Origin: Leuconostoc rapi
Lineage (GTDB): Bacteria; Bacillota; Bacilli; Lactobacillales; Lactobacillaceae
Reading direction: 5' to 3'
Assembly: GCF_016908715.1 (NCBI RefSeq)
Contig: NZ_JAFBEK010000005.1
Coordinates: 1 to 64,000, forward strand
Length of the DNA stretch: 64,000 nucleotides
The notes below the pieces were generated by a model. It saw only the letters and a list, made by a program, of their open reading frames with translations, was not told the DNA's origin and made no database searches. Made by a program: the position numbers and the translations under genes. How positions within the stretch are numbered: position 1 is the first letter of the stretch; every line of letters begins with the position of its first letter. This document shows positions 295 to 23,290 of this stretch, in pieces.

Positions 295-1377
295 TTATTG
301 TAACGTTAGCTTCAAGTCATCAGGTTTAATCAGCTTAAACCTTGTCATAAATAACCATTTTAAGAAAAACGCCAATATAACAGGTAAGACAACAAACGTT
401 GTTAAGATACTAAATATAGCACTAACCGACCCATCTGATAAAGTAAATGCGGTTAAGGGACCAATCAGACCCGAAAAACCAAACCCTGCCGAAGCTGGTG
501 TGCCCTTAACACCGAAAAGAGTTGCCACGACGCCCATAATCATTGCCCCAATTGTTGTGGGAATAAATAGTTTTGGTTTTGTTAACATGTTAGCCATTTG
601 TATTTTGGGCGAGCCAATAAAGTGTGCCAAAGTCCCACCAAGAGGATTAACTTGCGCACCCATTGCAGCTAGAGTAAAGCTCGCAACGACAATACCTGCA
701 TTAGCAGCACCCGACCCGATACCAGTTAAATTAATAGCCATCGCAATACCAACTGATGACAACGGTGACACAATTAAAAAGGCAAAAACACCGCCCAGTA
801 CTGCACCAAGAACTATCGGCGTAAGATCTGTTGCATACGCGACCGTCATACCAATAACCATTTGAACTTGGCGCAATGGGTCTAACGTTGCTAATCCAAT
901 GCCCCCGGCAATCATTAGAACAACTAATGGCTGTAATAACATTTTCAAGTGTCCAAACAAGTTTTCAGTCAACTTAACAAGTGCTGTTGCAATAATTGCA
1001 ACGAGTAAAATATTTAAGATAACACCAGTACCACCAATAATCATGCCGGATTTTGTTTGTGTAACAACACCCGATGATACAAATATAGCTAATGCTATAG
1101 AACCCGAATCAATCGGGGATAACTTGAATATTTGTCCAACTGCAAAACCAGCCACGAGTGGTAAAGTACTCTGAATAAGCGTTGTCATAAAAGCAACTTT
1201 AGCCGCCACAGGATTACCTGCGAATAGTAAAAGTAACTGGCTAACTAAGGCACTGGGTATTAATGTAATAACAATACCTAAGCTCGTGCCATTTAAAACA
1301 GTCACAATAAATTCCCGAACACGATATGACCGTTTATTTTGCACAGGCTTTACCGTATTTTGTATCATTTTACTCAT
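295..1377 (-). CDS. PfoR-like / PTS EIIC_2-type integral membrane protein
   Basis: A 360-residue, very hydrophobic protein with about nine membrane segments and many Gly/Ala-rich helices. It resembles the PTS_EIIC_2 group (the 'putative toxin regulator' PfoR family), which has the EIIC membrane fold without EIIA or EIIB phosphorylation domains; substrate and role are unknown. An upstream in-frame ATG exists at 1407, but GAGG lies eight bases before the ATG at 1377, so I chose that start. It is a single gene with its own intergenic region. It could be a sugar or carboxylate permease; nothing in the sequence decides this. Confidence 0.7.
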   Translation of the reverse strand: MSKMIQNTVKPVQNKRSYRVREFIVTVLNGTSLGIVITLIPSALVSQLLLLFAGNPVAAKVAFMTTLIQSTLPLVAGFAVGQIFKLSPIDSGSIALAIFVSSGVVTQTKSGMIIGGTGVILNILLVAIIATALVKLTENLFGHLKMLLQPLVVLMIAGGIGLATLDPLRQVQMVIGMTVAYATDLTPIVLGAVLGGVFAFLIVSPLSSVGIAMAINLTGIGSGAANAGIVVASFTLAAMGAQVNPLGGTLAHFIGSPKIQMANMLTKPKLFIPTTIGAMIMGVVATLFGVKGTPASAGFGFSGLIGPLTAFTLSDGSVSAIFSILTTFVVLPVILAFFLKWLFMTRFKLIKPDDLKLTLQ

Positions 1378-1414
1378 CCATTTGTCCTCATTAATATGTA
1401 TGCGCAAAAAGCGC

Positions 1415-2812: not shown

Positions 2813-2848
2813 CAAAAAACGCACATACGGACCATTCCGAATGTGCGT
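2813..2848 (-). terminator. Attenuator terminator of the aminotransferase leader
   Basis: An 8-bp stem ACGCACAT/ATGTGCGT continues after one T-T mismatch into CGGA/TCCG with loop ATGG. Six U residues follow, and then the aminotransferase ribosome site. It lies between the promoter and the gene, so it must act as an attenuator. Confidence 0.85.
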
Positions 2849-2932
2849 TAGTTCTATAGTTGAACTCACTGCGGCATTCGATGGTTGTTGCCATCTGAAT
2901 ACCATTGCAAAATGCTCTTGGTAACCAGACGA
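2849..2932 (-). promoter_or_regulatory. Alternative-pairing segment of the attenuator leader
   Basis: GGTATTC (2897-2903) pairs with GAATGCC (2873-2879), closing a hairpin with inner GATGG/CCATC. The same strand segment TCGAATG (2875-2881) can instead pair with CATTCGG (2837-2843), which is inside the 5' arm of the terminator, and so act as an antiterminator. A further small hairpin AGTTC/GAACT lies between them. The control-codon region (TGGTATTTC) resembles the GGTATTC arm and can compete for its partner. These pairings are seen in the sequence; the switching scheme is inferred. Confidence 0.6.
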
Positions 2933-2989
2933 CTATCCGAAATACCAAAAGTAAAATTTATTTGAGTTTTTTTTACGCATGTTTGTCAT
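2933..2989 (-). CDS. Aromatic amino-acid leader peptide
   Basis: An 18-codon ORF encodes MTNMRKKNSNKFYFWYFG and stops with TAG. Six consecutive codons near its end specify Phe, Tyr, Phe, Trp, Tyr, Phe. GAAGG (3000-3004) lies ten bases before the ATG. It is the first ORF on a transcript whose promoter, competing hairpins and intrinsic terminator are all visible, ahead of an aminotransferase. By analogy with pheL and trpL, ribosome stalling at these codons when charged aromatic tRNAs are scarce should prevent termination. Bacillota usually use T-box or TRAP for this task, so a leader peptide here is unusual. It is too short for standard gene callers. Confidence 0.75.
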   Translation of the reverse strand: MTNMRKKNSNKFYFWYFG

Positions 2990-3021
2990 TTGTTAAAAAC
3001 CTTCAACATTTTTATGAGATA

Positions 3022-3050
3022 ATTATAATATTTTTTAATATGATTGTCAA
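3022..3050 (-). promoter_or_regulatory. Promoter of the leader-aminotransferase transcript
   Basis: Consensus TTGACA (3045-3050), a 17-bp spacer and TATAAT (3022-3027). Transcription should begin near 3015, giving a leader of about 230 nt. Confidence 0.85.
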
Positions 3051-3836: not shown

Positions 3837-5237
3837 ATGTCCATCTTTTCGAGAGCATTTAAACGAGAATCTGTTGATAGTTATATCCGTGCAGATTCTC
3901 ATATGGCACGTGTTTTAACCACAAGAGATTTGATTGGCTTGGGCGTTGGTACAGTCATCGGTACCGGTATATTTATTTTGCCCGGTCATGAAGCTGCACA
4001 AAATGCAGGTCCGGCCGTATCTGTCGCCTTCTTAATTGCAGCTATATTTTCAGGGCTATCAGGTATGGCATTTGCTGAGTTTTCATCCGCTATGCCAGTT
4101 GCTGGTTCTGCTTATTCTTATGGCACAGTTGTTTACGGTGAAATTATTGGTTGGTTATTAGGTTGGTCTCTAATTTTAGAATATTTTCTAGCTGTTTCCG
4201 CTATTGCGACTGGTTTTTCTGCTTACCTAGGTAATTTATTAATCACATTTGGCATTCATATGCCAAAGTCTCTTCTAGCCGGCCCAATGGAAGGTGGTGT
4301 TATTAATTTATTCGCCGTCTTAATTATCTTGCTAGTTACTGTTATCTTATCACGTGGTTTAAATGCTTCCAAAAAAATTGAAAATGGTGCCGTTATCTTA
4401 AAAGTTGTCATTCTTGCACTATTTATTATCGGTGGCTCATTTTTCATCAAACATACAAATTATGTACCCTTTTATCCCAAAGAATTCCATTCTGGTTTTG
4501 GTGGGTTAAACGGCATATGGGCAGCCACTGCAAGTATCATCTTCGCTTTTCTTGGTTTTGATACAATTGCAGCACATGCTGCCGAAGTGAAAAACCCACA
4601 AAAAACAATGGCTCGTGGGATTATCGGTACAGTTATTATTTCAGCCTTACTTTACGTCCTGTTCTCAATCGTTCTAACAGGTATCGTGAACTACAAAAAA
4701 CTTGGCGTTGATGACCCTGCTGCGTTTGCTTTACAAGCTATTCACCAAACACAATTCTCTGTTGTTATTACCGTAGGCGCTCTTGTCGGTATGTTCACCG
4801 CTATTCTAGCGCTGGTTTATGCGTCATCGCGACTCACCTACTCATTTGGTCGTGATGGCTTACTACCACGCAGTTTAGGTAAAATATCAGCAGGCTCACG
4901 GTTACCAGTCAATGCATTAATTCTTGCCGTGATTGTTGAATCGATTTTTGCCGGTCTAATCCCATTGAACACATTAGCTAGCCTAATTAATGCTGGCACA
5001 TTATTGGCCTTCATGTTCATTAATTTTGGTATTCTAATATTACGTAGGCGCAAGGACCTGTCACATGACGGCTTTAAAGTACCCGGTTATCCTTTAGTAC
5101 CATTTATTGCAGGCGTGATCAGTTTACTACTGATTACAAAATTACCCGTCGAAACACTAGAGCTGTTTAGTATCTGGTTGGTTCTAGGTATTATTTGGTA
5201 CTTTGCCTATGGTATCCGTCATTCAAAGCTATCATAA
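3837..5237 (+). CDS. APC-family amino-acid permease (YfnA/cationic type)
   Basis: A 466-residue integral membrane protein with about twelve helices and the APC signature GLGVGTVIGTGIFILPG near residues 36-52 in the first helix. The family moves amino acids by proton symport or exchange; the closest style is the YfnA/CAT-like group. GGGAGA precedes the ATG. It is monocistronic: a divergent promoter region lies before it and a bidirectional terminator after it. The substrate cannot be read from the sequence. Confidence 0.8.
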   Translation: MSIFSRAFKRESVDSYIRADSHMARVLTTRDLIGLGVGTVIGTGIFILPGHEAAQNAGPAVSVAFLIAAIFSGLSGMAFAEFSSAMPVAGSAYSYGTVVYGEIIGWLLGWSLILEYFLAVSAIATGFSAYLGNLLITFGIHMPKSLLAGPMEGGVINLFAVLIILLVTVILSRGLNASKKIENGAVILKVVILALFIIGGSFFIKHTNYVPFYPKEFHSGFGGLNGIWAATASIIFAFLGFDTIAAHAAEVKNPQKTMARGIIGTVIISALLYVLFSIVLTGIVNYKKLGVDDPAAFALQAIHQTQFSVVITVGALVGMFTAILALVYASSRLTYSFGRDGLLPRSLGKISAGSRLPVNALILAVIVESIFAGLIPLNTLASLINAGTLLAFMFINFGILILRRRKDLSHDGFKVPGYPLVPFIAGVISLLLITKLPVETLELFSIWLVLGIIWYFAYGIRHSKLS

Positions 5238-18611: not shown

Positions 18612-18937
18612 AAAAAATCCCGTAGTATCAATTGATACTACGGGACGTTAAATGACGTGTTACCACCCGGTATTTGTGTAGCGCTCACGCGTATACACCT
18701 TCATACGTACGCCTTTAACTGCCTTCGAGAACATCTGTAGCAGTTATTGGTTATACGTTGTTTGCTAACGGAAACACCCGGTTTCAACTTACACGTAACA
18801 CATATGAGTGTCCGTTTGCTCGTATCAGTAAAAAACTCCAAGACCATTTTCCAATCCGCCGTCTTACTCGCTTTCACCTACCACGAGCTCTCTAACTAAG
18901 ACGCTATAAAGTACTTATCTTTTCAACGTTTATATTG
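18612..18937 (-). promoter_or_regulatory. T-box riboswitch, methionine specifier
   Basis: A leader of about 325 nt upstream of the MetE-like gene. It has the stem I start AGAGAGCTCGTGG, a candidate specifier codon ATG (18845-18847), the T-box sequence GGGTGGTAACACG near 18655-18667 and a terminator with stem TCCCGTAGTATCA (18612-18645). UGGU in the T-box pairs with ACCA of a tRNA with discriminator A. Uncharged tRNA-Met should stabilise the antiterminator and switch the gene on. T-box identity is certain from the motifs; the exact specifier is likely. Confidence 0.9.
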
Positions 18938-23063: not shown

Positions 23064-23280
23064 AAAAGCCCCTCTCTAATACATAGAAAGAGGTTTAAAA
23101 AGTCATTATATCATCAACTTTTCAAAGCACACCACGCTGCCGTGACAGTCTAACAACTATTAATTATTAGCCCAATAACATTCTGCCAAGAATGTTATTT
23201 CGGCAACCGCCCCTTTAACGTAACGTCAACACCCATGGCAGGCTCATTTACGCGATTTATGTTGGTTGCAACCTCTTTGA
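23064..23280 (-). promoter_or_regulatory. Lysine riboswitch (L-box) with terminator
   Basis: The aptamer covers about 23122-23280. Conserved lysine-aptamer pieces are visible in order on minus: AGAGGTTGCAACC, GCGTAAATGAGCC, AAAGGGGCGGTTGCCGAA, TTGGGCT and GACTGTCA. A terminator (stem CCTCTTTC/GAGAGAGG, 23064-23094) precedes the lysP start. Lysine binding should favour termination. Confidence 0.93.
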
Positions 23281-23290
23281 TAACTTGAAT

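Follow-up and report, generated by a model that had tools for sequence, protein, structure and literature searches.

Results

The leader region of a Leuconostoc rapi aminotransferase gene

Our analysis concerns a 64-kb window, meaning the whole stretch of DNA studied, from Leuconostoc rapi. On the minus strand, positions 1590 to 2786 encode an AraT-like class I/II aminotransferase of 398 amino acids (PF00155). The DNA from position 3050 to the start of this gene, at 2786, reads in the same orientation and carries a putative attenuator. A sigma-70-type promoter (3022 to 3050; TTGACA and TATAAT, with a spacing of 17) matches the consensus at 12 of 12 positions. The Shine-Dalgarno sequence, GAAGG (3000 to 3004), lies 10 nt 5' of the ATG (2989 to 2987) of an 18-codon leader ORF. 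Defined by ORF reading and alignment, the ORF occupies 2933 to 2989, encodes the peptide MTNMRKKNSNKFYFWYFG, and ends with a TAG stop codon (2935 to 2933). Codons 12 to 17 (2939 to 2956) are TTT TAC TTT TGG TAT TTC, encoding Phe-Tyr-Phe-Trp-Tyr-Phe, and are the candidate control codons, as judged from the codon table and 18 aligned leaders. Another ORF, of 7 codons (MLKVFNK, start at 3009), is found just 5' of the leader ORF.

Folding and alignment together reveal six segments able to pair in different ways. Segment 1 (2951 to 2936) overlaps the control codons and can form a hairpin with segment 2 (2929 to 2915), so that hairpin 1:2 spans 2915 to 2951. Alternatively, segment 2 can form hairpin 2:3 (2894 to 2929). 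Hairpin 3:4 (2873 to 2903) is followed by an antiterminator, 4:5, with an inner hairpin (2837 to 2881), and by an intrinsic terminator, 5:6, with its U run (2814 to 2848). Segment 5 is also the 5' arm of the terminator, and the antiterminator and terminator are mutually exclusive. Folding of the leader beats 200 of 200 shuffles (z of -5.4), and 1:2, 2:3, 3:4, 4:5 and 5:6 are each stable in isolation (-11.6 to -16.7 kcal/mol). Note that a simple terminator scan of the window did not list the 5:6 terminator, probably because the stem carries a mismatch; folding and alignment do reveal it. The promoter, Shine-Dalgarno sequence, 18-codon ORF, hairpins, terminator and aminotransferase described in the initial annotation, which gave no strand, are all present on the minus strand, and the six aromatic codons lie where that annotation placed them.

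Across all frames, a run of at least six consecutive aromatic codons occurs once in the window. By chance, 100 first-order Markov simulations give a mean of 0.12 such runs in each window, or 0.03 if only short ORFs beginning with ATG are counted. We regard conservation across the genus, described below, as a stronger test of the leader than the rarity of such runs.

T-boxes, which the initial annotation took to be the usual solution in this lineage, are indeed abundant in the genome, with 29 matches at E <= 0.001, of which 9 exceed the gathering score. None of the 29 falls at 2814 to 2989, so the leader does not match the T-box model (RF00230). No other Rfam family matches the window copy at gathering score; the best hit, to the trpB motif, has 22.8 bits (gathering score 59). 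Elsewhere on the minus strand of the window are a T-box-like leader just below the gathering score (18638 to 18935; 92.4 of 93 bits) and a lysine riboswitch (23117 to 23285; RF00168, 99.8 bits).

Genes adjoining the leader

Compared with solved protein chains, the aminotransferase matches 4my5 first and 1dju, an 'aromatic aminotransferase', third. It scores 560.5 bits against NCBIfam PRK07309, under the cut-off of 576. An aromatic substrate would fit these similarities. A PF13303 (PTS_EIIC_2) membrane protein is encoded 182 bases after araT (295 to 1407, minus strand). The two genes possibly form one operon, and a scan lists no terminator-like site on the minus strand between them. In genera g18 and g37 the PF13303 gene has an aromatic leader of its own, and its product may transport amino, keto or hydroxy acids of the aromatic type. 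In one species (L010:5235-6440 and L043:2735-3940) the PF13303 gene consists of two same-frame open stretches split by one stop codon, and may be broken.

Among the 18 genomes of the genus where the region is visible, 11 have a D-2-hydroxyacid dehydrogenase gene (PF02826/PF00389) directly 3' of araT, followed by the PF13303 gene (for example, L012:5190-6176). Many of the other loci retrieved carry the dehydrogenase too; tblastn matches (E <= 1e-15) occur at 64 loci in all, duplicates included. Within the window, a search of only the gap at 1408 to 1589 detected a possible remnant of 29 residues on the minus strand (1439 to 1525; 38% identity, tblastn E of 7e-4). Location of the dehydrogenase 3' of the aminotransferase suggests aromatic keto-acid reduction; the pair would convert Phe to phenyllactate. 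Such a catabolic role fits control by starvation less simply. Alternatively, the two enzymes could run in reverse; given an importer, aromatic hydroxy acids could then be salvaged to yield Phe.

A BcaP-like APC permease gene (3837 to 5237, plus strand) also adjoins the locus. Relatives in other genera carry aromatic leaders; our search with model R1, described below, found none upstream of the window copy.

The leader ORF is conserved in the genus

All 19 genomes examined for the genus, in which several leaders are identical to those of named Leuconostoc records, contain the aminotransferase gene. The initial annotation had suggested looking upstream of orthologous genes for a short ORF with conserved aromatic codons and variable flanks, and 18 of the 19 Leuconostoc genomes contain just this. 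In each, the ORF has exactly 18 codons and ends with [FY]YF[WK][YC]F, one more residue and a stop. Codons 2 to 11 vary freely among 18 aligned leaders. Conversely, codons 12 to 17 show only synonymous or Phe-Tyr changes, bar three types of exception: TGG to AAG (6 of the 18 leaders), TAC to AAC (one) and TAT to TGT (one). Promoters resembling that in the window are visible upstream of the other Leuconostoc leaders inspected, and relatives' leaders have purine-rich counterparts of the Shine-Dalgarno sequence. The sole exception among the 19 genomes, G001, has lost the leader start codon, and its hairpins have apparently decayed.

We also examined 31 named aminotransferase loci. A leader precedes the gene at 13, including four Lacticaseibacillus loci with leaders of 17 to 18 codons ending FFS[RW]YFG or KAFSWYFG. 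No leader was found within 450 nt upstream, the distance scanned, at the other 18 (L016, L021-L036 and L038), which include Periweissella and Secundilactobacillus; seven of these were also inspected by eye. Hence, the leader is not universal. The pattern TWYTTYTGGTWYTTY, which would miss leaders lacking Trp, occurs 7 times in the genome. In the open frames inspected around these, araT alone has an ATG ahead of the pattern in a short leader.

Two rival sets of pairings are conserved

We aligned 18 distinct leaders, 17 from Leuconostoc and one from a metagenome bin, and scored two sets of pairings, each drawn from the same sequences that were then scored. In the OFF state (1:2, 3:4 and 5:6), 94.6% of cells in the alignment are paired and 12 pairs are double-changed, a count reached by 0 of 500 shuffles. 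For the ON state (2:3 and 4:5 plus its inner hairpin) the equivalent values are 89.1% and 8, and 2 of 500 shuffles reach that count. Note that these shuffle counts are not probabilities, since the aligned sequences are kin. Sliding the structures along the alignment left 31-47% (OFF) or 23-44% (ON) of cells paired. A measure of further pair types was weak, being reached by 18 (OFF) and 43 (ON) of 500 shuffles.

Considered singly, the terminator has 98.6% of cells paired and 5 double-changed pairs, the antiterminator 97.6% and 2, its inner hairpin 95.8% and 3, and hairpin 3:4 94.4% and 2. The outer helix of hairpin 1:2 is paired in 100% of cells, with 3 double-changed pairs; the inner helix is weaker (70.8% and 2). 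Hairpin 2:3 has 83.3% of cells paired and 2 double-changed pairs, and its middle pairs are unpaired in 7-9 of the 18 leaders. In our alignment, the best evidence for rival pairings is coordinated change at three positions. Where codon 15 changes from TGG to AAG, columns 43, 71 and 86 change together and both 1:2 and 2:3 are preserved. Similarly, leaders with U in column 112 have A in column 162 and U in column 177, preserving both 4:5 and 5:6.

A conserved, structured RNA with alternative folds would also be expected of a riboswitch whose direct ligand is an aromatic amino acid or a precursor, the ORF being incidental. Short and long transcripts, as reported for Lactobacillales elements (PMC4448216), would suit this too. 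However, the first codons differ freely between leaders that all retain the start codon, Shine-Dalgarno sequence, frame and stop, and segment 1 is free to change if its partner segments follow. We judge direct ligand binding to be very unlikely.

Ribosome position and the proposed switch

We then modelled folding of the 18 leaders with RNA polymerase just past segment 5 and the 3' edge of the ribosome 12 nt past the start of the A-site codon. In this truncated fold, the probability of 4:5 averages 0.07 when no ribosome is present and 0.05 when the A site holds the stop codon. With codons 12 to 17 in the A site the values are 0.67, 0.69, 0.76, 0.74, 0.72 and 0.63, respectively, and the probability of 3:4 runs opposite. 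Hairpin 2:3 is favoured at these codons in 12-14 of the 18 leaders; four (L041-L044) never favour it there, even in the truncated fold. Placing the ribosome edge at 10 or 14 nt gives a similar picture, shifted by about one codon, and at 14 nt codon 17 falls to 0.36. In the full-length leader, including the 3' arm of the terminator, 5:6 wins at every ribosome position (0.99-1.00). Hence, the switch must be kinetic and made during transcription.

The best explanation, to which we assign a probability of about 85%, is ribosome-mediated transcription attenuation upstream of the aminotransferase gene, by a six-segment relay like that of the his operon. Here, when amino acids are ample, the ribosome would reach the stop codon and mask segment 2; hairpin 3:4 would form, followed by the terminator (OFF). 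A ribosome stalled at codons 12 to 17 would instead mask segment 1 and leave segment 2 free to form 2:3. Segment 4, so released, would capture segment 5 and thereby prevent terminator formation (ON). In the case of no translation, 1:2, 3:4 and 5:6 would form (OFF). The attenuator would thereby raise expression of the aminotransferase, and perhaps of the PF13303 membrane protein, when charged tRNA-Phe, and usually tRNA-Tyr, is scarce. Translation of the leader, stalling, readthrough and the amino acids sensed are what we infer from the sequences. The core of the initial annotation, an aromatic leader peptide with competing hairpins that attenuates the aminotransferase gene, finds good support in the conserved ORF, codons and both structures; its statements on sensing of all aromatic amino acids and on the lack of any earlier description, discussed below, need changing.

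Related leaders precede other aromatic amino acid genes

A covariance model, R1, matched 94 of 397 Lactobacillaceae genomes, in 17 of 40 genera, at E <= 0.01. Beyond the 18 araT leaders of the genus there were 87 matches, a count that excludes four weak opposite-strand matches overlapping the genus leaders. We examined 86 of the 87 (G379 was left out) and named the genes 3' of them by comparison with proteins of the window and loci. An aromatic leader is present at 82; the four matches without one are L142, L150, L151 and L153. The genes that follow encode an aminotransferase (54), an APC permease (15), a PF13303 protein (8), a TrpX-like binding protein (2), a transketolase (1, in G001) and a transposase (1), and one match lies at a contig end. 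The transketolase gene has its own aromatic leader, MNNAILKNNNYYYFWFM (L134:409-626), in the same genome as the araT leader that lacks a start codon. The transposase ORF (PF01527; L137:775-1023) is 3' of an aromatic leader where relatives carry the APC permease.

Across the order, R1 matched 39 of 395 genomes. There were 24 matches outside the family and 14 were read; 12 have leaders (L256 and L263 do not), 11 of them in the form FS[YF]FR. A second model, R2, was built from those 11 leaders and two from the Lactobacillaceae genus g10 (97.3% of cells paired, 4 double-changed pairs, 10 of 500 shuffles). Model R2 matched 253 of 395 Lactobacillales genomes, in 63 of 80 genera, at E <= 0.001, and none of the 6 Leuconostoc in this sample. 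All 30 R2 loci retrieved (L266-L295) have a leader of this related form (QLNNYYFSYFR); eight of the loci had themselves contributed to the model. The genes 3' of them encode TrpX-like proteins (23), AroE (5), an AroB-like protein (1) and DAHP synthase (1). Family search named four of these, and the rest were named from their first residues. Note that the TrpX-like proteins fall below the NCBIfam TrpX cut-off (324.6 to 384.2 versus 390 bits, for four proteins). At E <= 1e-4, a class-wide search matched 34 of 398 genomes, and five of these lie outside the order. Seven of the eight matches outside the order were read and all seven have leaders, upstream of genes for DAHP synthase (2), prephenate dehydratase (2), a TrpX-like protein, a transketolase and an aminotransferase (1 each).

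Leaders found with R1 and R2 share a terminal aromatic run in a short ORF, a first hairpin over that run and a AAAGCATTTTG core, and are likely to be of common descent. Their targets, in biosynthesis, uptake and the shikimate pathway, are coherent with ribosome-mediated attenuation by aromatic shortage. Conservation of the ORF and its codons, both sets of pairings and this coherent set of targets are established by computation.

Phenylalanine appears to be the common signal

We next counted aromatic codons in distinct leader peptides, excluding the first four residues. Phe codons are found in 16 of 16 Leuconostoc peptides, 68 of 68 further R1 peptides and 27 of 27 R2 peptides. For Tyr the equivalent counts are 16, 65 and 27, and for Trp 11, 48 and 0. 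Since Phe codons are constant, Tyr usual and Trp optional, Phe seems to be the shared signal, with the remaining codons apparently adjusted to the gene controlled. Outside the genus, Trp codons occur in 41 of 44 distinct leaders of aminotransferase genes, 4 of 6 for PF13303, 1 of 13 for APC permeases and 0 of 2 for TrpX-like proteins. Two prephenate dehydratase leaders have the run FFFSDF, with Phe and neither Tyr nor Trp, and one Tyr codon earlier in each. Given the frequency of Trp in aminotransferase leaders, and its presence in the window copy, the latter may also respond to Trp. On this pattern across the family, joint sensing of all aromatic amino acids, as first proposed, is not established.

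One feature argues against simple codon attenuation. In one subtype, the FSYFR-type leaders, QLN lies 5' of the aromatic run (26 of 27 distinct peptides from the 30 R2 loci, including the eight model-building places) and is unneeded for codon sensing. The Leu is encoded by several synonymous codons. Note that invariance of Leu in our QLN codon table is by construction, because leaders were selected for QLN, and the figure of 26 of 27 is less biased. The window subtype is without QLN. Retention of these residues is unexplained by codon sensing alone. For Streptomyces coelicolor ilvB, candidate control codons are reported to have been altered without effect (PMC1262725).

An arrest peptide of the TnaC type would reverse the logic. 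Here, the nascent aromatic peptide and free amino acid in the tunnel would stall the ribosome at high amino acid levels, inducing a catabolic aminotransferase and dehydrogenase. AraT can be catabolic, a dehydrogenase gene follows araT in many relatives, and conserved QLN, an ORF length invariant at 18 codons within the genus and strong conservation of the last residues are all properties that an arrest peptide might show. Yet the aromatic residues interchange or give way to K, S, G, T, R, N or C, and targets in biosynthesis and uptake fit starvation, not excess. We consider an arrest peptide improbable, and attenuation by aromatic shortage remains our preferred reading.

Discussion

Relation to described systems

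The his operon attenuator of enterobacteria has six segments, A to F. By description rather than sequence comparison, the Leuconostoc leader resembles it in having a run of control codons and a relay of alternating hairpins before the terminator, and differs in having aromatic codons and occurring in Bacilli. Enterobacterial pheA, pheST and trp leaders have a leader peptide with codons for Phe or Trp, and a ribosome-controlled terminator. Each uses one amino acid, whereas leaders of the Leuconostoc type mix Phe with Tyr and, in some cases, with Trp. Panina et al. (2003) reportedly addressed aromatic regulation in low-GC Gram-positive bacteria.

Within Bacillota, ribosome-mediated attenuation has been tested experimentally for the Listeria Rli60 ilv attenuator (PMC5864092); the mechanism is that proposed here, with branched-chain amino acids. 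His leader peptides of Firmicutes are also in print (PMC9413887, PMC2965389), again with the same type of attenuation but for histidine. A Phe-containing uORF before a terminator, uORFC-13-1, has been proposed for Acholeplasma aroF from 24 sequences of Acholeplasma and environmental samples (PMC8632094). It likewise precedes an aromatic gene, a likeness by description. Hence the mechanism is already known; the lineage, mixed codons, regulon and reinterpretation of published elements are new.

The gbs2033 and gbs1262 elements of Streptococcus agalactiae, located 5' of ABC-transporter operons and conserved in Lactobacillales, were called 'new riboswitches' in 2015, and RNA-seq detected premature termination (PMC4448216). 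The gbs2033 element also occurs 5' of the Enterococcus faecium aroFBC-tyrA operon (PMC4448216). No word beginning 'peptide' was found in the main text of that paper. By our analysis the gbs2033 element is probably an FSYFR-type (R2) leader, and we would read as a leader-peptide attenuator what was there interpreted as a riboswitch.

The Rfam family RF02863 (Enterococcus sRNA 2410, sRNA_2410) scores above gathering at 5 of 20 leader loci scanned, four outside Lactobacillaceae (L247, L252, L255 and L257) and one within (L133). The window leader does not match at gathering score. Could these loci encode a trans-acting small RNA? The E. faecium RNA is 195 nt long and gives two transcripts on Northern blots (PMC5593968), an appearance that a terminated leader would share. 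Moreover, the matches sit in leaders of aromatic amino acid genes and begin inside the leader ORF, so a small RNA acting in trans is extremely improbable. A term search of PMC5593968 gave neither 'leader' nor 'attenuat'.

Among the matches listed, no open-licence paper describes an aromatic leader-peptide attenuator in Lactobacillales in its title or the start of its abstract. A term search of PMC7724050 found nothing, and one of PMC2494555 turned up neither araT nor Leuconostoc. The initial annotation had stated that no description was known in Leuconostocaceae. For Leuconostoc this holds among the open-licence papers listed; for relatives in other Lactobacillales, Rfam already has an sRNA entry and a riboswitch has probably been published.

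Implications

The broadest version of our reading is one ancestral, Bacilli-wide family of aromatic attenuators. It would govern an entire regulon (DAHP synthase, transketolase, aroB/aroE, pheA, aminotransferase and permeases) with codons tuned by branch and co-sensing by the QLNxYYFSYFR nascent peptide, the known 'riboswitch' and 'sRNA' being terminated leaders. In this full form the proposal is unlikely. If attenuation of this kind is confirmed, a textbook mechanism of the enterobacterial style would be widespread in Bacilli, alongside the T-boxes that normally receive the credit. A published riboswitch element and an Rfam sRNA would share a single, testable explanation. Transketolase would be under aromatic control in two distant lineages. 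Finally, handling of Phe and Tyr, or of the corresponding keto or hydroxy acids, would be predicted for three products: the PF13303 protein, the BcaP-like APC permease and the TrpX-like transporter whose leader lacks Trp.
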